Positions 9,090-18,780 of a DNA stretch of 64,000 bases are shown piece after piece. Both the position numbers and the translations under genes were made by a program. The DNA is from Kineosporia corallincola (GTDB lineage Bacteria > Actinomycetota > Actinomycetes > Actinomycetales > Kineosporiaceae): assembly GCF_018499875.1 (NCBI RefSeq), contig NZ_JAHBAY010000021.1:1-64000 (forward strand). Direction: 5' to 3'. Under the pieces are notes generated by a model. That model was given only the letters and a program-made list of their open reading frames with translations. It did not search any database and was not told where the DNA came from. Every line of letters starts with the position of its first letter. Within the stretch, counting starts at the first letter, position 1.

Positions 9090-9524
9090 ATGAACGTTCG
9101 CAGAAAAACCATTATTGGCTTAAGCTCCCTCATCTTGGCCGCCATGCCGCTTGGAGTCGGGACATCCTCGGCTTCAGCAGCTCCAGCCCCGGTTGGAGAC
9201 CTGGCACCGGATTGCGTTCCACAGGTTGACTTAAACAAATCCGAAACATATGGAATCATGGCGGTATTCGGAGCACAATGCGATCGAAAGATCAATGTCA
9301 ATATAAAAGGTCGTGTTTTTATCGGCGGAAAACTAAAGAAAACAAGCAAGCTCAAGAAGTGTCGAAACATGAAACAGAATGCTTACTGTCAGTCCTACTT
9401 AACCGCTAGCAACCCGCGCGGGAAGAACAAGGTACGCGTCGAGGTGACGGTGGATTGGTGGCTCGCTGAGGAGTCGAGCAAATACAGCCACCGAGTGATG
9501 GCGTCAACCACACAGGTAATGTAA
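9090..9524 (+). CDS. Small secreted cationic protein, four cysteines (unknown function)
   Basis: 144 residues, no recognised family. There is a clear Sec signal peptide (basic MNVRRK, hydrophobic IIGLSSLILAAMPLGVG, cleavage expected after SASA at about residue 30). The mature part is Lys-rich with four cysteines at 42, 64, 91 and 100, compatible with two disulfides, and a beta-type pattern in KVRVEVTVDWWLAEESS. GC is close to 50%. Three TTA leucine codons (residues 11, 48, 104) are very unusual for this genome. The start ATG has AAGGGG upstream. It is followed after 29 bp by a gene encoding a protein of identical length and similar design. Confidence 0.8.
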   Translation: MNVRRKTIIGLSSLILAAMPLGVGTSSASAAPAPVGDLAPDCVPQVDLNKSETYGIMAVFGAQCDRKINVNIKGRVFIGGKLKKTSKLKKCRNMKQNAYCQSYLTASNPRGKNKVRVEVTVDWWLAEESSKYSHRVMASTTQVM

Positions 9525-9553
9525 TTTAATTTCAAGGCGCGAGGGATAGACAC

Positions 9554-9988
9554 GTGAAACTTTCATTTAAGATGCACGCTCTTCGGCGAGCCACACTCCT
9601 AGTGACCTGCATTTCAATACTAGGTACCTGGTCCATTGCTTCAGGAAATTCTGCCAGCGCGGCATCCTCATATTGTTATGACGACATTGAGTGGGCCAAA
9701 GTAGGCAAATACATGCAAGTTCAGAACACTGCGCGCTGCAACTATAAGGATCAAAGAATCTTCAACGTGAGCTGGGTCACGTCCGTCGACAAGAAGTCTA
9801 AGAAGAGCGGCAGCATTACCAAGGAGCAGCGTTCCAAGAAAGCCAGCACGAATCTGGGAAAAATCAAGGTTCTAAAACGGTCTGGAAAGCATAACTACTG
9901 CGTAGATTGGATGCTTCAGACTGTGGTGACCAGCCTGCCGAATCTTCCGCGAAGCACGACCCAGGGCAAGTCCTGCTTCTATAAGTAG
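9554..9988 (+). CDS. Small secreted cationic protein, second of a tandem pair (unknown function)
   Basis: 144 residues from a GTG start with GAGGGA at a good distance; ATG at codon 7 is an alternative. The signal peptide ends near SASA (about residue 36). The mature part carries four cysteines (41, 62, 116, 141) and is strongly basic, with the cluster VDKKSKKSGSITKEQRSKK. The first two mature cysteines are 21 apart, against 22 in the preceding protein, and both proteins have a tryptophan/beta-strand motif, so distant paralogy is possible but not provable by eye. It has about 50% GC and shares an operon with its neighbour, closed by the terminator at 10034-10080. Confidence 0.78.
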   Translation: MKLSFKMHALRRATLLVTCISILGTWSIASGNSASAASSYCYDDIEWAKVGKYMQVQNTARCNYKDQRIFNVSWVTSVDKKSKKSGSITKEQRSKKASTNLGKIKVLKRSGKHNYCVDWMLQTVVTSLPNLPRSTTQGKSCFYK

Positions 9989-10096: not shown

Positions 10097-10594
10097 ATGA
10101 CGCTCACCGCCGAAGAAGTCCGGACCTACGTCGGCCGAATGGTTTTCGACTCCGACCACGAGATGCTCGGACCGGTGGAGGGGATCTACTTCAACGACTC
10201 CACCGGGGTTCCGGAGTGGTTGTCGTTCTCCACCGATTTCCTTTCGTACCGGGACGCTTTCGTGCCGGCTGCGACCGTCGTGCCGTTCGGGGAGGGCATC
10301 TCGCTACCGCTGGACCGGGAGATCCTGCGGCACATGCCACGGATCAAGCCGCGCGAGGGTGCCCTGTCGAGCGCCCAGGTGGCCCGGCTGCACGAATACT
10401 TCGGCACGTTCTCCGGCGAGCACTTCAGCTCGGCCCACGAGGGCGCGCCGATCAAGGCCGTCGCACCGCTGATCCCGGCCCAGCGCTCGGGTTTCCGGGG
10501 CCGCTCGTTCGAGGTGGCCTTCGGTACCGGCGCCCCGGTGCCGGGTGAGCCGCACGATGTCACGCTTCAGGGCACCGGTAACCACGCTCCCTGA
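10097..10594 (+). CDS. PRC-barrel-like domain protein, copy 1
   Basis: 165 residues, probably cytoplasmic, with no membrane segment. The N-terminal 80 residues (VRTYVGRMVFDSDHEMLGPV, IYFND, WLSF, AFVPA) fit a PRC-barrel small beta-barrel, a fold used for protein or RNA contacts and regulation. The middle block SSAQVARLHEYFGTF and the end GEPHDVTLQGTGNHAP match the protein at 18256-18780 closely, so the two are paralogs. A strong site GAGGAG precedes the ATG. It starts right after the terminator of the preceding operon and converges on the ligase gene, with its stop inside a shared palindrome. Confidence 0.82.
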   Translation: MTLTAEEVRTYVGRMVFDSDHEMLGPVEGIYFNDSTGVPEWLSFSTDFLSYRDAFVPAATVVPFGEGISLPLDREILRHMPRIKPREGALSSAQVARLHEYFGTFSGEHFSSAHEGAPIKAVAPLIPAQRSGFRGRSFEVAFGTGAPVPGEPHDVTLQGTGNHAP

Positions 10595-10605
10595 AAAGCT
10601 TTTCA
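10592..10605. terminator. Perfect 14-bp palindrome spanning two convergent stop codons
   Basis: TGAAAAGCTTTTCA is fully self-complementary. Its left TGA is the stop of the PRC-barrel gene and its right TCA is the stop of the ligase on the opposite strand. It has no loop and so is a weak hairpin. With its A and T runs on both strands it may act as a minimal bidirectional terminator. Confidence 0.5.
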
Positions 10606-12090
10606 CACCAATGGACGACGAAGAGCCTTCTTGTCCGGTTTGCCGCCGGGTGTGAGCGGCAGCTCGTCGATCACCGTGAACCCCCGGGGCACCCAGGCCT
10701 CCCCCAGTCGTTCCGTCACGGCGCGGCGCAGCCCCGGTTCCAGGAGTTCCGTCGGCGTGTCGTCACGCAGGATCAGGAAGGCCTCGATCGCCTCGCCAGT
10801 GGTCTCGTCGGGCACGCCCACCACGTAGGCCGAGTCGACGGACGGGTGCGTGGCCAGCACCCGCTCGATCGGCCCGGCGTAATACACGTTGGCGTTGACG
10901 ATCACCACGTCGCGGGCCCGCCCCTCCAGGTGCAGGAAGCCCTCGGCGTCGAGGCCGCCGAGGTCGCGGGTGCGGATCCAGCCGTCCGGCGTGAACACCT
11001 CGGCCTGCTCGCGCTCGATGTCGCCCTGGTTGATGTAACCGACGGTCTGCTGCGGCGTTCGCACGTAGATCTCGCCGTCGTCACGGGTCTGCACCTGGTT
11101 GCGCGGAAGCGGCCGGCCGACCGAGGTCATGGCCGCTTCCGAGGCCAGGGCCTGGTCGGGCGACAGCATGCTGATCAGGCCGCACTCGGTCTGCCCGTAG
11201 CCCTGGAACACGATCGGCCCGAGCAGGTGCAGGGCCTCGGCGTAGCGGCGCGGGTCGAGCGGTGAGCCCGACACCATCAGCCCGCGCAGGCCGCTCACGT
11301 CGGCCCCCTCGTCCCGCACCGCGGCCAGCAGGGCCAGCAGCTTGGGCACGGTGATGATGCTGCCGGTCAGCCGGTGCCGGGCCACCAGCTCGGGGAACGG
11401 GGCGTCGCGCTCGGGGATCACCAGCCGGCCGCCGTGCAACAGGGTCATCAAGGCGTAGTCGAGCATGACGGCGCTGCTGAGCGTGCCGTGCAGCAGGTAG
11501 CGGTCCAGGCGGGAACCCAGGTCGGCGAGCACGTCGGAGTGGAACTCGGTGCGGGACGGCCAGTCCGCGTTCAGCGCGGCGTAGGTCTGCGCCGCACCCT
11601 TCGGGTTGCCGGTGCTGCCGCTGGTGTAGGTGATGCGGGCCTCGTCGGCGTCGCGGCCGCGAGGCTCCAGGTCGTGGTCCTCGTCGGCGTCCCGGTCGAG
11701 CGTCAGCCGGTCGACGTCCACCAGCACCAGGTCGGGCCGGGCCTTCAGCACCAGGTCGACGGGGGTGGCGGCGTCCACCAGCCCCCAGCCGATCCGCTCG
11801 TCCAGCAGGTAGGCCAGCTGGTCGGCGGTCAGCCCGGGCCGCACCCCACTCACCCGGGCGCCCACCACGTGGGCCGCCAGGTTCGCCGCGAACCCCTGCG
11901 CCGTCACCCCGACCATCAGCGCCACTCCCGAGCCCGGCCCGGCACCGGCCGTGCGCAGGGCCGCGGTGGCGCGGCACACCAGGCTCAGCATCCCGGCGCC
12001 CGTCACCTCCTGACCGGCGCGCTCCAGGACGACCTCCCCGGCGCGCACACGCAGATGCTCGAGAACCCTGCTCGGGAACTTGTCGCTCAC
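10603..12090 (-). CDS. Adenylate-forming acyl/aryl ligase (AMP-dependent synthetase)
   Basis: A class I adenylating enzyme of 495 residues that would activate a carboxylic acid as its acyl-AMP, and perhaps pass it to CoA or a carrier. The P-loop-like motif is YTSGSTGNPKG (154-164). Later motifs are VFQGYGQTECG, the ATP-binding D in IRTRDLGGLDAEGFLHLEGR, and the C-terminal lysine in PGGKPDKKALRR. The GTG start overlaps the stop of the upstream response regulator (CTGTGAG), giving tight coupling; longer readings of the frame are shadow. It is the last gene of the leftward redox cluster. No carrier protein or NRPS/PKS lies in the window, so the acceptor is unknown. The family includes CoA ligases and stand-alone adenylation domains. 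Confidence 0.88.
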   Translation of the reverse strand: MSDKFPSRVLEHLRVRAGEVVLERAGQEVTGAGMLSLVCRATAALRTAGAGPGSGVALMVGVTAQGFAANLAAHVVGARVSGVRPGLTADQLAYLLDERIGWGLVDAATPVDLVLKARPDLVLVDVDRLTLDRDADEDHDLEPRGRDADEARITYTSGSTGNPKGAAQTYAALNADWPSRTEFHSDVLADLGSRLDRYLLHGTLSSAVMLDYALMTLLHGGRLVIPERDAPFPELVARHRLTGSIITVPKLLALLAAVRDEGADVSGLRGLMVSGSPLDPRRYAEALHLLGPIVFQGYGQTECGLISMLSPDQALASEAAMTSVGRPLPRNQVQTRDDGEIYVRTPQQTVGYINQGDIEREQAEVFTPDGWIRTRDLGGLDAEGFLHLEGRARDVVIVNANVYYAGPIERVLATHPSVDSAYVVGVPDETTGEAIEAFLILRDDTPTELLEPGLRRAVTERLGEAWVPRGFTVIDELPLTPGGKPDKKALRRPLV

Positions 12091-12767
12091 AGCTCTCCCA
12101 GTTGGTAGCCCAGGTTGTGGACGGTGCGGACCGCGGTGCGGCCCAGCTTGCGGCGCAGGTAGTAGACGTAGGTGGCGACCAGTGAGGCGGACGAGGCGTC
12201 GCGGAACACCCGGCGCGCCAGCTCTTCCCGGGGGTGCACCGCGGCCGGGTGGTCGGCCAGGATCCGGATCAGCCGGAACTCCCTGTCGGACAACGGGATC
12301 CGCCCGCCCTCGGGCAGCACGGCGGTGCGGCTGCGCAGGTCGAGCTGCCCCTCGCCGATCCGCAGCACCTGCGCCAGTTCGACCGGGCGGCGGCACAGGG
12401 CCCGCAGTCGCGCGGTCAGCTCCCCGGTCTCGAACGGCCGGGCCAGGTAGTCGTCGGCGCCGGAGTCGAGGGCCTCGATCAGCTCGGGCACCGTGCGGTC
12501 GGGAGCGATCAGCAGCGCCCTCGTGGTGACGGCCCGGCCACGCAGCCGCCGGATCAGGCTCACCCCGTCGACCACCGGCAGCGTGCGGGAGATGACCATG
12601 ACGTCGTAGGTACGGGTCAGGGCCAGGTGCAGGCCGGCCTGACCGTCCCGGGCCTGCTCCACGTCGTAGCCCTCACACCGCAGCACCCGGCTCAACGCTG
12701 AGGAGGGTTCGGCGTCGTCGTCGGCGAGCAGAAGTCGTGGCGCCCGGCGGCGTTCCCTGTTTGCCAT
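12087..12767 (-). CDS. OmpR-like response regulator with degenerate receiver
   Basis: 226 residues. The receiver keeps the acidic pocket (LLLADDDAE, 16-18), but the phosphoacceptor position is Ser60 (VMVISRTLPVVDG in place of the usual LDLxLPxxDG). The conserved Thr is Ile87 and the conserved Lys is Arg110 (DYLARPF). All three phosphorylation residues are lost, so it probably works without a kinase; none is nearby. The C-terminal winged helix is intact (LSDREFRLIRILADHPAA, TVHNLGYQL). It is cotranscribed with the ligase downstream (overlapping stop and start). A 75-bp gap separates it from the antiporter gene upstream and contains GAAAGTT-type repeats. It is probably the cluster-specific regulator. 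Confidence 0.88.
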   Translation of the reverse strand: MANRERRRAPRLLLADDDAEPSSALSRVLRCEGYDVEQARDGQAGLHLALTRTYDVMVISRTLPVVDGVSLIRRLRGRAVTTRALLIAPDRTVPELIEALDSGADDYLARPFETGELTARLRALCRRPVELAQVLRIGEGQLDLRSRTAVLPEGGRIPLSDREFRLIRILADHPAAVHPREELARRVFRDASSASLVATYVYYLRRKLGRTAVRTVHNLGYQLGEL

Positions 12768-12820
12768 CGTTGGAAAGTTGCATAGGGTACGTAAAGGACT
12801 CGATCGGGCAACGATAAATG

Positions 12821-12842
12821 CTTGAAAGTTAACTCACTTTCC
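12821..12842. promoter_or_regulatory. Inverted repeat upstream of the degenerate response regulator
   Basis: GAAAGT (12824-12829) and ACTTTC (12836-12841) form an inverted repeat 57-74 bp upstream of the regulator start. The heptamer GAAAGTT recurs at 12773-12779 and again 31-37 bp upstream of the flavoprotein gene (18169-18175). This could be an autoregulatory operator. The motif is short, so confidence is low. Confidence 0.35.
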
Positions 12843-14110
12843 TCACGCGGTGGCGGCCGGAGCCAGCTCGGGTTCCCGGGCCCGGGTGCGGCGGGCCTCC
12901 AGCCGGTCGATCAGGGTGAGCGCGGGCGTCGTCATCAAAGTGGTCACCAGCGCAACGAGCACCAGGGCGGTGAACATCCGCTCGCTCACGAGCCCTGCGC
13001 TCAGCCCCACGTTGAGGGCGATCAGCTGCATCAGGCCGCGGGCGTTCATCAGGGCCCCGATCCGGGCGGCCACCAGTGGCGGCTGCCCGGCGATCCGGGC
13101 GGCGGCCCAGCAGGCGCCGAACTTCCCGATCACGGCCGCGGCGATGCAGGCCAGGGCGAACAGCAGCACGGCCGGGTCACCGAGCAGGCCGAACTTGGTC
13201 TGGAGCCCCGAATAGGTGAAGAACAGCGGCAGGAACAGGCCGTTCGCCAGCGGGAGATCGCCGTCATCACCTGCTCGCTGTCCTCGTTCTGCGGCATCAC
13301 CATGCCCACGCAGAAGGCGCCGAACACGGCGTACAGGCCGATCTCGTCGGTGTACCAGGCCACCGCGAAGAGCAGCAGGAGGACGGCGATGAGCCGGGTC
13401 TGCGGATCGAAGCGGGTCCGTTCCATCACTGTCGTGACCACCCGGCGCCCGGCCACCAGGACCAGCACCGCGAACACCACCGCGCCGCCGAGTGTGAGCA
13501 GCGCCGGGCCGAACTCGCCGGAGGCGGCGGCGAGCACGAAGGCCAGCAGGATCCAGGCGGTAGCGTCGTCGATCGCCCCGCCGGCCATGGCGAGCGACCC
13601 GTGCGGGGTGCCGGCGTGCCCGCGCTCGGTGACGATGCGGGCCAGCATCGGGAACGCCGTGATGGCCAGCGCCACCCCGACGAAGGCCGCGGACACCCCG
13701 GTGGACACCCCCTCGGCGAAGACCGGCACGTGGTCGCGTGAGACCACGGTCAGCAGCACCCCGAGCAGCAGCGGCGCGCTGACCCCGGCCAGCGAGATCA
13801 GCCCGGCCGTCCCGGCCACCCCGCGAGGGCGGTGCGCGCCGAACTCGTGGCCGGCCGTGAACATGAACAGCACCAGGCCGATCTGGCCCAGCACGTACAG
13901 CACCGGCCGCAGCTGATCGGGGAACAGCGCGTCCTGCACCTTTGGGAACAGCAACCCGAGCAGGCTGGGGCCGAGCAGCACGCCGGCCAGCATCTCGCTG
14001 ACCACCGCCGGCTGCCCGGCCTTGCCGAGCAGCCAGGCCACGGCCCGGCAGACCAGCACGATCACCACGACGGCGATGAAGAACCGGGGGGCGAGCTCGG
14101 TCGGGGTCAT
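12843..14110 (-). pseudogene. Cation/proton antiporter (CPA2, Kef type), frameshifted
   Basis: A membrane antiporter reading in two frames. The N-terminal part, from ATG 14110 to about 13255, has roughly ten hydrophobic segments and family motifs such as SEMLAGVLLGPSLLG, FMFTAGHEF and GGAIDDATAWILLA. The C-terminal part continues in another frame as LANGLFLPLFFTYSGLQTKF through to TTPALTLIDRLEARR. Restoring one C in the run at 13252-13254 (GGG on the plus strand) gives AISPLANGLFLPLFF in one frame, and the total length is one base short of a multiple of three. This is either a real recent inactivation or an assembly error in a homopolymer. The start overlaps the P450 stop by four bases, so it belongs to the cluster operon. 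Confidence 0.82.
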
Positions 14111-15483
14111 CGCCCGACCACCTCCTTCGGGGCCGGGCCGTGCTCCGGATGTTCGTCGAAATACGTCGCGCAGAGCCGTTTCCGCCGTGCGTCCCAGACC
14201 ATGTAGCTGCCGAGAACGAGCTGCGTCACGCTGGTCGTGACGTCGTCCACCCGGTCGCGGGCCCGCATCCGGGCCAGCGGCACCCGCAGGTCCGGCCGCG
14301 GCCGGTCACGCCGCACCAGCAGGCACGGCCCCCGGTTCGGCATCGAGCGGGTGTGCGAGGCCGAGCTGCGCAACGTGTAGCGGCGCAGCACCTCACGCGC
14401 CGCCGCCCGCATCATCACCGGTGCCATGCCGCGCGCCGGGCAGGCCCGGTTGGCGGTGACCCCGAACGGGATGAAGCTCGCGTCCTTGCGTTTCAGCGAG
14501 AGCCAGCGGTCCGGGCGGAACTCGTCGTCCGGGGCCGGGCCGGTGCGGTGGAAGGCCAGGTAGTTGAACAGCAGCACCGAGCCGGTGGGCAGGGTGCGGC
14601 CGGGCAGCTCGATCGGCGCGGTGGTGATCCGGTGGGCGATGCCGAACAGCGGGTTCACCCGCAGCGCCTCGTCGATCACCCGGTCCAGCAGCTCGTCGTC
14701 GTCCAGGTGCGCGGCCAGCTGGTCCTGCACGTCCGGATGCTGCGCGACCGCCATCAGCAGGTGCGCCATCGCCTCGGACATCTGCACCACGGCGGTGTTG
14801 AAGAACGCGCCCTGGAGGTACCAGGCGGTCTCCAGGGTGCTGAACTCGTCGTCCGGCAGGGTGACCAGCGACTCCCCTGCCTCCAGCCGCTCCACCAGGT
14901 AATCGGTCAGGGCGTCGCGCCGGTCCATGTGCCGCAGGCTGGTGCCCTTCAGCGCGGTGATCACGTCGTCGGCGTTGCCCACGATCAGGTCGCGTGCCCG
15001 CGGCGGGCAGGGCTCGCCGAAGACCAGCTCGTAGTAGGCCTCGGCCCAGATCGGCATCATCAGGTCGCGGATCCGGACCGGGCTCACGTCGTCCAACGGC
15101 AGTTCGTCCAGCACGGCGGCGGCGCGGTCGGCGGCGAGCCGCTCGGCGTCCTTCAGCGGCACGGCCAGGGCCTGGCGCGTCGTGCGGGCCACGGTGCGGT
15201 AGCGCGGTCCGGGTTCCAGGTGCTCCTGATGCATCTGCGGGCCGGGCGCTAGCCAGTACCAGAACAGGTCGGACAGGCCCGCCCCCAGACTGCGGCCGTC
15301 GGCGGCCGGGTCGGAGTAGAGCCGCTCGAAGTGCTCGGCACCGATCCCGGGGCCGGGCACCGGGATGCCCTCCTCACCGTTGATCAGGGTGAAAATGCCT
15401 TCGCGCAGCCGGATCACGGCCGGCGGCAGCCACCACGGCGAGCTCGCCGTCGCGGCGGCGGCCAGCAGGGCACGGCGGATCAT
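14107..15483 (-). CDS. Cytochrome P450, divergent
   Basis: A heme monooxygenase-like protein of 458 residues. The K-helix ExxR is EALR in IDEALRVNPLFG, the PERF-like region is FRPDRW, and the heme-thiolate Cys is in FIPFGVTANRACPARG. Two features are unusual. The heme loop lacks the usual glycines (FGVTANRACPA instead of FGxGxRxCxG), and the I-helix region LQGAFFNTAVVQMSEAMAHL has no AGxxT oxygen-activation motif. About 70 residues follow the heme loop. The short hydrophobic N-terminus ALLAAAATASSPWW could be a weak membrane or lipid contact. The ATG at 15483 overlaps the oxidase stop (ATGA), and 26 extra upstream codons in frame lie inside that gene. The substrate is unknown; monooxygenation or an atypical dehydration or isomerisation is possible. 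Confidence 0.88.
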   Translation of the reverse strand: MIRRALLAAAATASSPWWLPPAVIRLREGIFTLINGEEGIPVPGPGIGAEHFERLYSDPAADGRSLGAGLSDLFWYWLAPGPQMHQEHLEPGPRYRTVARTTRQALAVPLKDAERLAADRAAAVLDELPLDDVSPVRIRDLMMPIWAEAYYELVFGEPCPPRARDLIVGNADDVITALKGTSLRHMDRRDALTDYLVERLEAGESLVTLPDDEFSTLETAWYLQGAFFNTAVVQMSEAMAHLLMAVAQHPDVQDQLAAHLDDDELLDRVIDEALRVNPLFGIAHRITTAPIELPGRTLPTGSVLLFNYLAFHRTGPAPDDEFRPDRWLSLKRKDASFIPFGVTANRACPARGMAPVMMRAAAREVLRRYTLRSSASHTRSMPNRGPCLLVRRDRPRPDLRVPLARMRARDRVDDVTTSVTQLVLGSYMVWDARRKRLCATYFDEHPEHGPAPKEVVGR

Positions 15484-16568
15484 GCGGTTCCTCCTGTCGG
15501 GGCCGAGAGATGGGGAGCCAGGACGTCCGGGCCCAGTTCTCCCGGCGATCGGGCGCCGCACAGGGCCATCGCCTCGTCGAGCTCGGTGCGCAGCAGTTCG
15601 AGCACCTCACGCACACCGTCCTGTCCGGCGGCGGCCAGGCCCCACAGCACCGGGCGGCCGATGCCGACGGCCGTGGCCCCGAGGGCGAGTGCCCGCACCA
15701 CGTCGATCCCGCGGCGCACCCCGCCGTCCACGATCAGCGGAAAACCCTGGGGGACGACGGCGGCCACGCCGGGCAGGGCGTCGGCCGTGGCGATCGCGCC
15801 GTCCAGCTGCCGGCCTCCGTGGTTGGACACGAACAGGCCGTCCACACCGTGCTCGACGGCGAGCCGGGCGTCGTCGGGATGCAGCACTCCCTTGAGCAGG
15901 ATCGGCAGGTCCGTGGTCTCCCGCAGCCGGGCGACCGCGTCCCAGGTCAGGCCGGCGTCCATCACGATGTCGCGCAGCACGCCCGCGTCGTCCACCAGGT
16001 TCTCGCAGCGCAGGCCACCGGGAAGATCGTGGAAACCGTTGCGGTGGTCCCGCTCCCGTCGCCCGAACACCGGGGAGTCGACCGTGACCACGAGCGCGCC
16101 GTAACCGGCCCGTCCGGCCCGGCGCACCAGATGACGGGTGAAGTCCTGGTCGGGCTGGAGGTACAGCTGGAGCCAGGGCCGCGTGGTGTGCGCGGCGACC
16201 TCCTCCAGCCTGGTCGTGGCGGCCATCGAGACCACCATCGTCACCCCGGCCGCCTCCGCCGCCCTGGCCGTGGCCGGCTCGCCCGCGGGATGGGCGAGGC
16301 GGTGGAAGGCGGTCGGCGAGAGCAGCACCGGCATCGAGTTCGGCCGGCCGAGGAGGCTGGTCGCGAGGCTCCGGGCGGACACGTCGCGCAGCACCCGCGG
16401 CCTCAGCCGGATCCGCTCGAACGCGGCCAGGTTGGCACGCGCCGTGCTCTCGTCGCCGGCCGCCCCGGCGAAGAAGTCGGCGTGCACCGGGTCCAGCACC
16501 GTCGCCGCCTCACGTTCGACATCGGCCAGGCTGAGGCGTTTTCCGGGCAGCACGTCAGTGGCCGGCAC
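15480..16568 (-). CDS. FMN-dependent alpha-hydroxy-acid oxidase/dehydrogenase
   Basis: A TIM-barrel flavoenzyme of 362 residues that oxidises an L-2-hydroxy acid to the 2-oxo acid (lactate/glycolate/mandelate oxidase family). The catalytic His and Arg are in VSNHGGRQLDG; FMN-phosphate binding is in DGGVRRGIDVVRALALGA; the N-terminal barrel strand has PVLLSPTAFHRLAHPAGE. The barrel entry YLQPD and the active-site VTVDSPVFGRRERD are present. The start overlaps the upstream flavoprotein gene by 14 bp and the stop overlaps the P450 start by 4 bp. The substrate cannot be read from sequence. In other pathways such enzymes act as mandelate-type oxidases or in cofactor modification. Confidence 0.92.
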   Translation of the reverse strand: MPATDVLPGKRLSLADVEREAATVLDPVHADFFAGAAGDESTARANLAAFERIRLRPRVLRDVSARSLATSLLGRPNSMPVLLSPTAFHRLAHPAGEPATARAAEAAGVTMVVSMAATTRLEEVAAHTTRPWLQLYLQPDQDFTRHLVRRAGRAGYGALVVTVDSPVFGRRERDHRNGFHDLPGGLRCENLVDDAGVLRDIVMDAGLTWDAVARLRETTDLPILLKGVLHPDDARLAVEHGVDGLFVSNHGGRQLDGAIATADALPGVAAVVPQGFPLIVDGGVRRGIDVVRALALGATAVGIGRPVLWGLAAAGQDGVREVLELLRTELDEAMALCGARSPGELGPDVLAPHLSAPTGGTA

Positions 16569-18138
16569 CGACCACCTCCAGCTGGTGGGCCAGGAACGCC
16601 GTCAGCGGCTCCTGGTGCACCGCGGGCCGGTTCCACTCGTTCTCCAGGTTCTCAGCCAGATGGTGCGTGGCCACCAGTTCCGGCGCGCCGCCGGTCTTGC
16701 GGTAGTGGCGGACGACGGGGTGCAGGTAGGCCGCGTCGTGGGCCTGCCCCGGCTCGTCCTGGGCGATGCGGGCGACGTCGATGTCGAAGGGGTCCACCTG
16801 GTCGTGGTCGGGGCCGTACTCCAGTGTGACCACGAAGGCGTGCTCCGGAACGCCCACGCCGCCCTCGCGGAAGTAGTCCACCGGAACCTCTTCCAGGTAG
16901 CGCGCCTGACCGCCGTCGACCGTCACCACGTCGGCCAGCACACCGAACTGCTGCCACAGTGCCGAGGTGCGGTTGACCCGGGCGATCACCGCGTCGGTGA
17001 TCGCCACCGGCTCCGCGGCCAGCTCGGTGGACGGCCAGTCCTGGCCCTCGTAGCGCTGGTCGAGGATCCTGGACAGCGCCCGCACCGCGTACCGGAACCC
17101 GTGGATGAAGCCGCTCGTCGACTTCTTGAAATCGCGCATCTGGCTGAGGGTTCCGGCGATGTACAGGCCTGGCACATTCACCGACTCCCAGGCCGACGTC
17201 TGCGCCGGGAAGCGGTCGCGGATGACCAGGTCGGGCTTGCTGTCCTCGTCGAAGATGCTCGCGTCGAACCGGAATCCGGCGGCCAGGATCACCCGGTCGT
17301 AGGTCAGGTCCTTGTGCACCTCGTTCACGCGGGCGAAGCTGAACGTGACCGTGAAGGTGCCGTCGTCGTTCTTGCGGATCCGCTGCACGTCGCCGTCGAG
17401 GATCGCGTTCTGCGACTTCAGCTGGTAGGTGTCGAGGAAGTTGTTGTTGACGGCGCGCAGGTGACCGACGAAGTGTGTGCGCCAGGCCAGTTTCAGCGAG
17501 TTCGGGCCGGCGACGTGCAGCACCGAGGTGGTCTCGACCAGGTTGTCGGCGGTCTCGAAGGCCGAGTTCCCCTTGCCGATGATCAGCACGCGCTGGTCGA
17601 TGAAGTCGTCCGGGTCCACACTCACTGTGTCGTAGTGCTCGACCGTCTCGATGCCCTCGATCTGCGGCACGTTCAGCTGCGAGACACCGGTGGCCACGAT
17701 CAGCCGCTTCGCCCGCCAGGTCTGGTCCCCGGAGCGCACCTCGAACTCGTCGCCCTGCCGGGACACCCCGTCGACGCGGGTGTCGTAACGCACCTGGACG
17801 CCGGTCTGCTCGGCGAAGTGCTCGAGGTAGCCGACCAGGTCGTCGGCCGCCGGGAAGTAGCGCCGGGTGCGGGAGGTGAACCGCAGATCCGGGTCGGGCC
17901 GGTCGCTGAGCAGCGAGTTCCAGTCCATCCGCAGGTTGAACTCGGGGTCGTCCGAACCGGTGTGACGCTTGTTGATCGAGATCAGCTGCCGGTGCCGCGG
18001 GTAGGTACGGAAGAAGGTGCCCGGGCCGGGCCCGGCCTCCAGAACCAGGTAGTCGCGGCCGGTGTGCTGGAACCGGGCGGCCAGCTGGAGCCCGGCCGGT
18101 CCGGCTCCGATGATCAGGTAGTCGATCGCGGCAGTCAT
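16555..18138 (-). CDS. FOXRED2-like FAD/NAD(P)H flavoprotein monooxygenase
   Basis: 527 residues with two Rossmann motifs: FAD-binding IIGAGPAGLQLAARF (about 8-22) and NAD(P)H-binding LIIGKGNSAFETADNL (about 190). Between and after them are stretches I recognise from eukaryotic FOXRED2/ERFAD: FFRTYPRHRQLISINKRHTG, EFNLRMDWNSLLS, YDTVSVDPDDF, NNFLDTYQLKSQNAI and SGFIHGFRYAVRAL. The class B flavin-monooxygenase fingerprint FxGxxxHxxxW is not seen, so it is not a classical FMO. The last 150 residues are less conserved. It is the first gene of the leftward cluster and would act with the hydroxy-acid oxidase and P450 just downstream. The reaction and substrate are unknown. Confidence 0.87.
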   Translation of the reverse strand: MTAAIDYLIIGAGPAGLQLAARFQHTGRDYLVLEAGPGPGTFFRTYPRHRQLISINKRHTGSDDPEFNLRMDWNSLLSDRPDPDLRFTSRTRRYFPAADDLVGYLEHFAEQTGVQVRYDTRVDGVSRQGDEFEVRSGDQTWRAKRLIVATGVSQLNVPQIEGIETVEHYDTVSVDPDDFIDQRVLIIGKGNSAFETADNLVETTSVLHVAGPNSLKLAWRTHFVGHLRAVNNNFLDTYQLKSQNAILDGDVQRIRKNDDGTFTVTFSFARVNEVHKDLTYDRVILAAGFRFDASIFDEDSKPDLVIRDRFPAQTSAWESVNVPGLYIAGTLSQMRDFKKSTSGFIHGFRYAVRALSRILDQRYEGQDWPSTELAAEPVAITDAVIARVNRTSALWQQFGVLADVVTVDGGQARYLEEVPVDYFREGGVGVPEHAFVVTLEYGPDHDQVDPFDIDVARIAQDEPGQAHDAAYLHPVVRHYRKTGGAPELVATHHLAENLENEWNRPAVHQEPLTAFLAHQLEVVGAGH

Positions 18139-18222
18139 GGCGGTGAACGCTAGGTCGGGGATCTCAGAGAAAGTTCAGGACCTCCGACTCTCGACTGGTG
18201 CTCACGGTCAACGGCGCGAAAC

Positions 18223-18238
18223 TGGTGCCCACGCACCA
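18223..18238 (+). repeat. Small hairpin in the leader of the second PRC-barrel gene
   Basis: TGGTGC-CCAC-GCACCA, a perfect six-base stem just before the ribosome site GGGAGGAG. A related string, CCCACGCACC, also precedes the first PRC-barrel gene (inside its upstream terminator), so the duplicated unit may have included leader DNA. Confidence 0.45.
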
Positions 18239-18255
18239 AGGGAGGAGCAGCAGTC

Positions 18256-18780
18256 ATGAACCTGAAGCCTCAGGAGGCCCGCGACCTGGTAGGACGCCCG
18301 GTGCACGACTCCCACGGCGAGCGCCTGGGCGCCGTCAGCGGGGTGTACTTCAACGACGTCGGCCGGGACCTCGCATGGGTGTCCTTCGTCACGGACCCGG
18401 AATCCTCCGACGCGGAATCTGCCCGGAACGGGCAGGCTTTCGTGCCCGCCGGACAGTTGCAGACGCATCAGGACCGGCTCACCCTGCCCTTCGACCGGGG
18501 TGTGCTGGAGAACCAGCCGCACATCGAGCCGCACGACGGCAGCCTGTCGAACGCGCAGGTGGCGCGGTTGCACGAGTTCTTCCACACCTTCGACGGGCAC
18601 AGCCGGATCACCGGCGCGAGCGAGGGCGAGCCGCCGACCGCCCGGGTGGTGGAATCCACGGAGAAATCACGGGTTCCGTTCACCGGGCGCGGTCATGAGG
18701 CGGCCTTCGGCACCGGTGCGGCCCTGCCGGGCGAACCGCACGACGTGACGCTTCAGGGCAACGGGAACTCGGCACCCTGA
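18256..18780 (+). CDS. PRC-barrel-like domain protein, copy 2
   Basis: 174 residues, paralog of the protein at 10097-10594. The matching order is a PRC-barrel start (ARDLVGRPVHDSHGERLGAV), GVYFND, W-V-SF, AFVPA, LPFDRGVL, the helix SNAQVARLHEFFHTF, and the C-terminal signature LPGEPHDVTLQGNGNSAP. It has no signal peptide or membrane segment. An eight-base purine site GGGAGGAG lies nine bases before the ATG. It is divergent from the flavoprotein gene across 117 bp. The two copies bracket the redox/ligase operon on its outer sides. The function is unknown. Confidence 0.82.
   Translation: MNLKPQEARDLVGRPVHDSHGERLGAVSGVYFNDVGRDLAWVSFVTDPESSDAESARNGQAFVPAGQLQTHQDRLTLPFDRGVLENQPHIEPHDGSLSNAQVARLHEFFHTFDGHSRITGASEGEPPTARVVESTEKSRVPFTGRGHEAAFGTGAALPGEPHDVTLQGNGNSAP

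Follow-up and report, generated by a model that had tools for sequence, protein, structure and literature searches.

The actinomycete bagremycin and ferroverdin pathways reportedly start from a tyrosine ammonia-lyase. In the marinacarboline pathway, the adenylating enzyme McbA dispenses with the catalytic His of 4-chlorobenzoyl-CoA ligase, according to the available sections of PMC6282839 and PMC10804368. Plant allene oxide synthase, a peroxide-cleaving cytochrome P450 (P450), carries the I-helix motif FATcFNTw, in which Asn321 supports hydroperoxide scission and is not indispensable; Asn occupies the same I-helix place in prostacyclin synthase, 8R-LDS and 10R-EAS, and some peroxide-cleaving P450s have other residues there (PMC13049297, in excerpt). 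Here we analyse a row of six genes (10603..18138) in a stretch of 64,000 nucleotides from Kineosporia corallincola (assembly GCF_018499875.1, contig NZ_JAHBAY010000021.1, positions 1 to 64,000), hereafter the window, in which these systems find partial counterparts. The six genes are a real, recurrent unit. On the balance of probability, they would form a small member of a sporadic family of actinomycete specialised-metabolite clusters lacking a core enzyme, one acting on an aryl or related acid by activation and oxidation. The genes and their boundaries are as follows.

10097..10594, plus strand: flanking PRC-barrel-like paralogue A, a boundary outside the cluster; no Pfam match of its own, resembles paralogue B
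10603..12090, minus strand: LIG, ANL adenylating ligase, 495 amino acids (aa), AMP-binding
12087..12767, minus strand: RR, OmpR-type response regulator, 226 aa, Response_reg and Trans_reg_C, without an adjacent kinase
12843..14110, minus strand: ANT, CPA2-type cation:proton antiporter, Na_H_Exchanger, frame broken
14107..15483, minus strand: P450, 458 aa, p450 family
15480..16568, minus strand: HAO, FMN-dependent alpha-hydroxy acid oxidase/dehydrogenase, 362 aa, FMN_dh
16555..18138, minus strand: FOX, FAD/NAD(P)H flavoprotein, 527 aa, Pyr_redox_3, FOX>HAO paralogue type
18256..18780, plus strand: flanking PRC-barrel paralogue B, a boundary outside the cluster

All six genes lie on the minus strand and belong to the families proposed in the initial annotation, its name FOXRED2-like for the flavoprotein being a provisional label. 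The junctions given there were reproduced on recomputation (overlaps of 14, 4, 4 and 4 bp, and 75 bp separating antiporter from regulator). Its family assignment for the antiporter also holds, but it missed that this gene is not a single open frame: the exchanger-family match starts at 14110 and continues to 12843 in another frame, switching at about 13.24–13.25 kb, with the N-terminal part inside 13130–14110 and the C-terminal part inside 12843–13253. The homologue in the congener G003 is one open frame of 418 aa, and the break in the window would be either a sequencing or assembly error or a true frameshift. A promoter and terminator scan of 10500–18400 returned 0 and 1 sites, against 0.1 and 1.5 in shuffles, and no Rfam match at gathering scores was found inside the cluster.

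To follow the cluster beyond the genus, genome contigs were scanned with the FOX proteins of two congeners, which confirmed 232 relatives; the best 80 were kept, so the loci were chosen on FOX alone. They span 25 genus names as counted from titles, 24 of them actinomycete and one an acidobacterial metagenome-assembled genome (MAG). Neighbours were counted within about 10 kb at family-specific cut-offs of 80–250 bits, some loci being truncated by contig ends. P450 was present in 74 loci (53–69% identity), HAO in 70 (49–66%), LIG in 62 (42–53%) and ANT in 61, the antiporters being of two sorts (54–69% identical to the query in 30 loci, 39–44% in 31). A histidine kinase (HK) was found in 57 loci, RR in 49, an aromatic lyase in 35 and a sulfotransferase in 17. 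FOX, HAO and P450 follow one another on one strand in 70 of the 80 loci, joined by ANT in 54 and by both ANT and RR in 25; the six loci missing both HAO and P450 comprise five lyase loci and one at a contig edge. In a class sample of 394 genomes, with the three to four best candidates scored per genome, FOX at 61% identity or more occurred in 12 genomes and P450 at E ≤ 1e-40 in 13, namely the same 12 and G107, where FOX lies beside the P450 in two pieces (co-occurrence, Fisher p 5e-22). In the 11 genomes other than that of the window, FOX lies 1.0–1.2 kb from the P450 on the same contig or adjoins it divergently (G229). Left out of this count were G349, G387, G395, G411 and a second copy in G456, whose FOX are 45–46% identical; three such loci, when opened, gave no match to the other eight queries at E ≤ 1e-8. 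Scattered homologues, which the initial annotation had named as the observation that would speak against a cluster, are thus not what was found, and co-localisation in both the FOX-chosen loci and the even class sample rules out a chance neighbourhood. Enzymes, transport and regulation are co-located and co-inherited across lineages, and the distribution is sporadic, with gain and loss: 12–13 of 394 genomes, fragments or gaps in congeners, and a P450 tree that places the window beside Micromonosporaceae rows.

Some loci call for separate mention. Five of the Nonomuraea group (L069, L079, L090, L095 and L136) have no HAO at the locus and keep FOX, P450, ANT, RR, HK and LIG. L042, a contig assigned to an uncultured Granulicella MAG, has FOX-HAO-P450 with a FOX of 62% identity, by transfer or binning error. 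In the plasmid collection, only a Nonomuraea gerenzanensis record, itself without annotation, matched over at least 80%. A 45% identical FOX family occurs in other actinomycetes in unrelated context (L133, L134 and L135); in L133 and L135 it adjoins a protein starting MGVEEEY, presumably glutamate-cysteine-ligase-like.

The family consists of two modules. A quick FOX tree is split by one branch (SH-aLRT 100) into a FOX>LIG type (36 rows) and a FOX>HAO or P450 type (76 rows, including the window). The lyase is confined to FOX>LIG loci and occurs in 35 of these 36; the exception, L063, lies at a contig end in a genome that has the lyase elsewhere. Both modules are complete (lyase, two FOX, LIG, HAO and P450) in 30 of the 80 loci, and in Virgisporangium they stand in two places (L039 and L109). 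The lyase of L031 matches PF00221, with 2o6y, which we take to be the Rhodobacter tyrosine ammonia-lyase, as best PDB hit; the ASGD motif and a His-Leu pair, presumably conferring tyrosine-type selectivity, are kept in 35 of 35 lyases. The L031 lyase differs from the bagremycin/ferroverdin lyase BagA/FevW (NCBIfam NF041222), scoring 220 bits against a cut-off of 1000. The window cluster itself has no lyase, second FOX or kinase, and a lyase search of the genus gave distant relatives only, at 39% identity or less over full length, besides two partial rows of 42–44% in G005. In the LIG tree the window sits at the end of a long stem (0.73), beside the lyase-type rows but outside their clade, and is separate from the sulfotransferase-type rows (100/100). 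In the P450 tree its sister group, among the rows listed, consists of nine Micromonosporaceae lyase-type rows (support 100), and in the FOX tree the window pair, those nine and the FOX>LIG clade meet at an unresolved fork. By these trees the window cluster is kin of the lyase type; it may have lost the lyase and second FOX, or its lineage may have branched off before these were acquired. That it is a reduced lyase-type cluster was considered and dropped, as the LIG tree places it beside rather than inside those rows.

A Sulfotransfer_4 gene stands beside LIG or HAO, with no lyase at the locus, in L044, L055, L058, L061, L069, L070, L079, L080, L082 and L084; further such loci without lyase are L086, L090, L093–L096 and L108, and also L136–L138. 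Lyase and Sulfotransfer_4 occur together in none of the 80 loci, and the genomes of L044, L055, L061, L069 and L094 have a lyase elsewhere (58–71% identity).

The solved structures nearest to LIG are 6sq8 and 6h1b (best PDB hit 6sq8, E 1.5e-53; both titled "fatty acid CoA ligase"), which we take to be amide bond synthetase entries of McbA. The initial annotation had the adenylating family right and missed this kinship. An Ala in 6h1b where 6sq8 has Lys fits the K483A crystal described in the available part of PMC6282839. At the catalytic His position of CoA ligases, located from the phmmer alignment, LIG has Ser206, and Ser is found in 64 of 64 rows; like McbA, LIG thus lacks the catalytic His. 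The sections at hand of PMC6282839 and PMC10804368 mention no FOX, HAO or P450 partner genes for McbA.

FOX has an FMO / bacillithiol-reductase-like fold over residues 2–364, followed by a C-terminal region. Bacillithiol disulfide reductase Bdr and thioredoxin reductases are among its high-ranking fold matches; none of the 112 FOX rows has a CxxC motif and the window copy has no Cys at all, so a disulfide reductase is unlikely. From the single-component FMO (4a9w) and Bdr (7a7b), FOX differs in lacking CxxC and in its extra C-terminal region. Fold searches with FOX and with the P450 gave no decision on function.

In the P450, the heme ligand C348 is invariant (76 of 76 rows) and the ExxR Arg is kept in 66 of 76. 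The I helix of a usual P450 bears an acid-Thr pair; here its motif is GAFFNTAV, with Thr230 in all 76 rows and Asn229 in 71 (Thr in four, Val in one), and no row has an acid. The Asn is shared with prostacyclin synthase and, as Asn-Thr, with allene oxide synthase, a resemblance at one position (PMC13049297, in excerpt); no CYP74 entry was among the matches listed in sequence and fold comparisons. A structure prediction (mean pLDDT 84) aligns with P450s over residues 20–394. Residues ~400–444 form extra C-terminal helices that contain several invariant positions and that none of the 50 listed PDB matches shares.

Comparison of the same site in the genus (the window genome, G000, and five congeners, G001–G005) shows the cluster in several states. 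Two diverged PRC-barrel-like paralogues lie near each other in all six genomes and mark the insertion site. In G003 the same six genes occur in the same order at the same site (overlaps of 11, 4, 4 and 4 bp, gap of 60 bp), all six open, as against five of six in the window. In G002 and G005, fragments of the end genes LIG and FOX remain between the flanking genes; the inner genes were not found there by tblastn at E ≤ 1e-4, and blastn gave short, low-scoring pieces, the strongest being 27 bp on the reverse strand in G005 (E 5e-5). The flanking genes are about 0.16 kb apart in G004, where nothing better than E 0.1 matched the G003 interval, and about 0.2 kb apart in G001, where one 44-bp match falls at the upstream end of that interval, outside the coding genes. 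Within the genus, the range over which it was compared, this agrees with the earlier statement that the row interrupts a conserved backbone. P450 at E ≤ 1e-10 is confined to G000 and G003 among the genus genomes, and FOX at E ≤ 1e-30, searched in 58 relatives (52 of which belong to other genera), to these two and a fragment in G002. By recA, G002 and G005 are sisters 1.6% apart, every other pair differing by 5.8–7.5%, so that deletion from an ancestor that bore the cluster accounts for at least this pair. Between G000 and G003, dN/dS is 0.22–0.37 for all six genes, including both antiporter parts; the cluster genes are constrained, though no more than their neighbours.

In both G000 and G003, the RR receiver has Ser at the phospho-acceptor position (Ser60 in the window; 48 Asp, two Ser and one gap in 51 rows), while Ala occupies the Thr switch and the conserved Lys is replaced by Arg or Trp. 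Its output domain is recognised, and the phospho-acceptor Asp of a phosphorylation-dependent OmpR-type regulator is lacking. The initial annotation, which called the regulator an orphan, overlooked that both this Asp and a neighbouring kinase are missing. Elsewhere a kinase adjoins the regulator (RR then HK) in 47 of the 80 loci, and RR is followed by LIG in none. No family-type kinase was found in the window or in L006–L008 of the same contig beyond one 29% match, which lies outside the cluster at 2.9–3.7 kb of the window; the search was confined to these parts of the genome. Both the kinase and the phosphorylation site are thus absent, in a pair of related genomes that may owe this to a single event.

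How the P450 works can be read in two ways. It may be an ordinary monooxygenase that draws on a ferredoxin encoded at another place in the genome, with an incidental Asn and an HAO that has no link to peroxide, a reading whose chances we put slightly below even. The invariant Thr230, the absence of HAO from some P450-bearing loci and the general observation that many actinomycete P450s have no linked ferredoxin agree with it. It fits less well with the consecutive order FOX-HAO-P450 in 70 of 80 loci and with an acid position that is Asn in 71 rows and never Asp or Glu; moreover, among 22 raw hits of a ferredoxin motif scan over 82 neighbourhoods, two (L054 and L071) were judged ferredoxins, each directly behind another P450-family gene. 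Fold comparison leaves the question undecided, since the 50 matches listed span no more than 2 Z units and include both ordinary P450s and CYP152 peroxygenases. A peroxide-using P450 fed by HAO is possible. The further proposal that FOX-HAO-P450 is a self-contained oxidising relay, in which an Asn-type P450 would use H2O2 from HAO or a hydroperoxide from FOX without a redox partner, and that this is the defining chemistry of a widespread core-less pathway, seems to us distinctly improbable.

Two other explanations concern the operon as a whole. It could be catabolic or detoxifying, taking up an aromatic or hydroxy acid and oxidising it for growth or protection, with LIG as a CoA ligase. Hydroxy-acid oxidases, acyl ligases and antiporters are generally known from catabolic operons too, and the frequent adjacent RR-HK pair would suit one. 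The Ser that replaces the CoA-ligase His throughout points the other way, as does the lyase linked in 35 loci, which would make rather than remove an aryl acid; Pfam assignments for ten neighbour proteins drawn from recurring families include no hydratase, thiolase or ring-cleavage enzyme, a weak point, many neighbour families being unscanned. We consider catabolism unlikely. It is similarly doubtful that the cluster in this genus is a dying relic without current function. The two genomes with end-gene fragments only, the two with a short gap, the broken antiporter frame and the missing kinase and receiver Asp are what a relic would leave, but five of six genes are open in the window and six of six in G003, and each gene, like both antiporter halves, has a dN/dS of 0.22–0.37. 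The regulator changes are, moreover, common to G000 and G003, so the cluster outlived them.

We therefore return to a core-less cluster for specialised metabolism, and to several observations that weigh against it. McbA has Asp201, tied to amine activation in the accessible text on McbA (PMC6282839, PMC10804368), where LIG has Ser206. Four loci retain FOX, P450 and LIG without HAO, which the Nonomuraea gerenzanensis locus also lacks; the 39–44% identical antiporters (31 of 61) may be of a different type. The dN/dS values resemble those of the flanking PRC genes (0.28–0.34) and are far above that of recA (0.03), and the full cluster is lost or lacking in four of the six genus genomes. Furthermore, the lyase is absent from 45 of the 80 loci: 44 genomes of such loci were searched, 32 of which have no match at 57% identity or more, while matches at E ≤ 1e-80 occur in 13, of which 12 reach that identity. 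With the lyase missing from so many loci and genomes, p-coumarate cannot be the general starter.

We infer substrates, step order and product of the pathway as follows. In its fullest form, a tyrosine-type aromatic ammonia-lyase would supply p-coumarate; LIG would adenylate the acid and hand it to an acceptor, most likely an amine; and the two paralogous FMO-fold FOX, the FMN-dependent HAO and the P450 would then oxidise the skeleton. The antiporter would handle ions or export, and the two-component pair would switch the operon. In the window cluster the kinase was probably lost, and the lyase module was lost or never present. Without a lyase, the starter acid would have to come from elsewhere, and without kinase and phospho-acceptor the regulator would have to act without phosphorylation. 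A small oxidised acid made without an NRPS, PKS, terpene or RiPP core, as the initial annotation proposed, is compatible with these data, its product being a matter of prediction; the aromatic lyase and second flavoprotein of many relatives had escaped it. The cluster is not described in the titles and abstract starts listed from among the matching open-licence PubMed Central papers.

Elsewhere in the window, an Actino-pnp RNA (Rfam RF01688, 60853–60922, minus strand) is an ordinary cis-regulatory element. At 9090–9988, two small proteins with secretion-signal-like starts, judged by eye, fall within the 2-kb block of lowest G+C (53% versus 60–76% in other blocks); in G003, just ~0.1 kb separates the transporter gene from the PRC-barrel gene at this place.

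In summary, the genus illustrates cluster loss clearly, its genomes ranging from the complete cluster by way of end-gene fragments to a short gap, and where the cluster survives in the genus, kinase and phospho-acceptor are both missing. The family, which 24 genus names of actinomycetes share, has no recognised core enzyme, and finders keyed to core enzymes would probably miss it. Its lyase, ligase, two flavoproteins, oxidase and unusual P450 suggest a concrete, testable chemistry.

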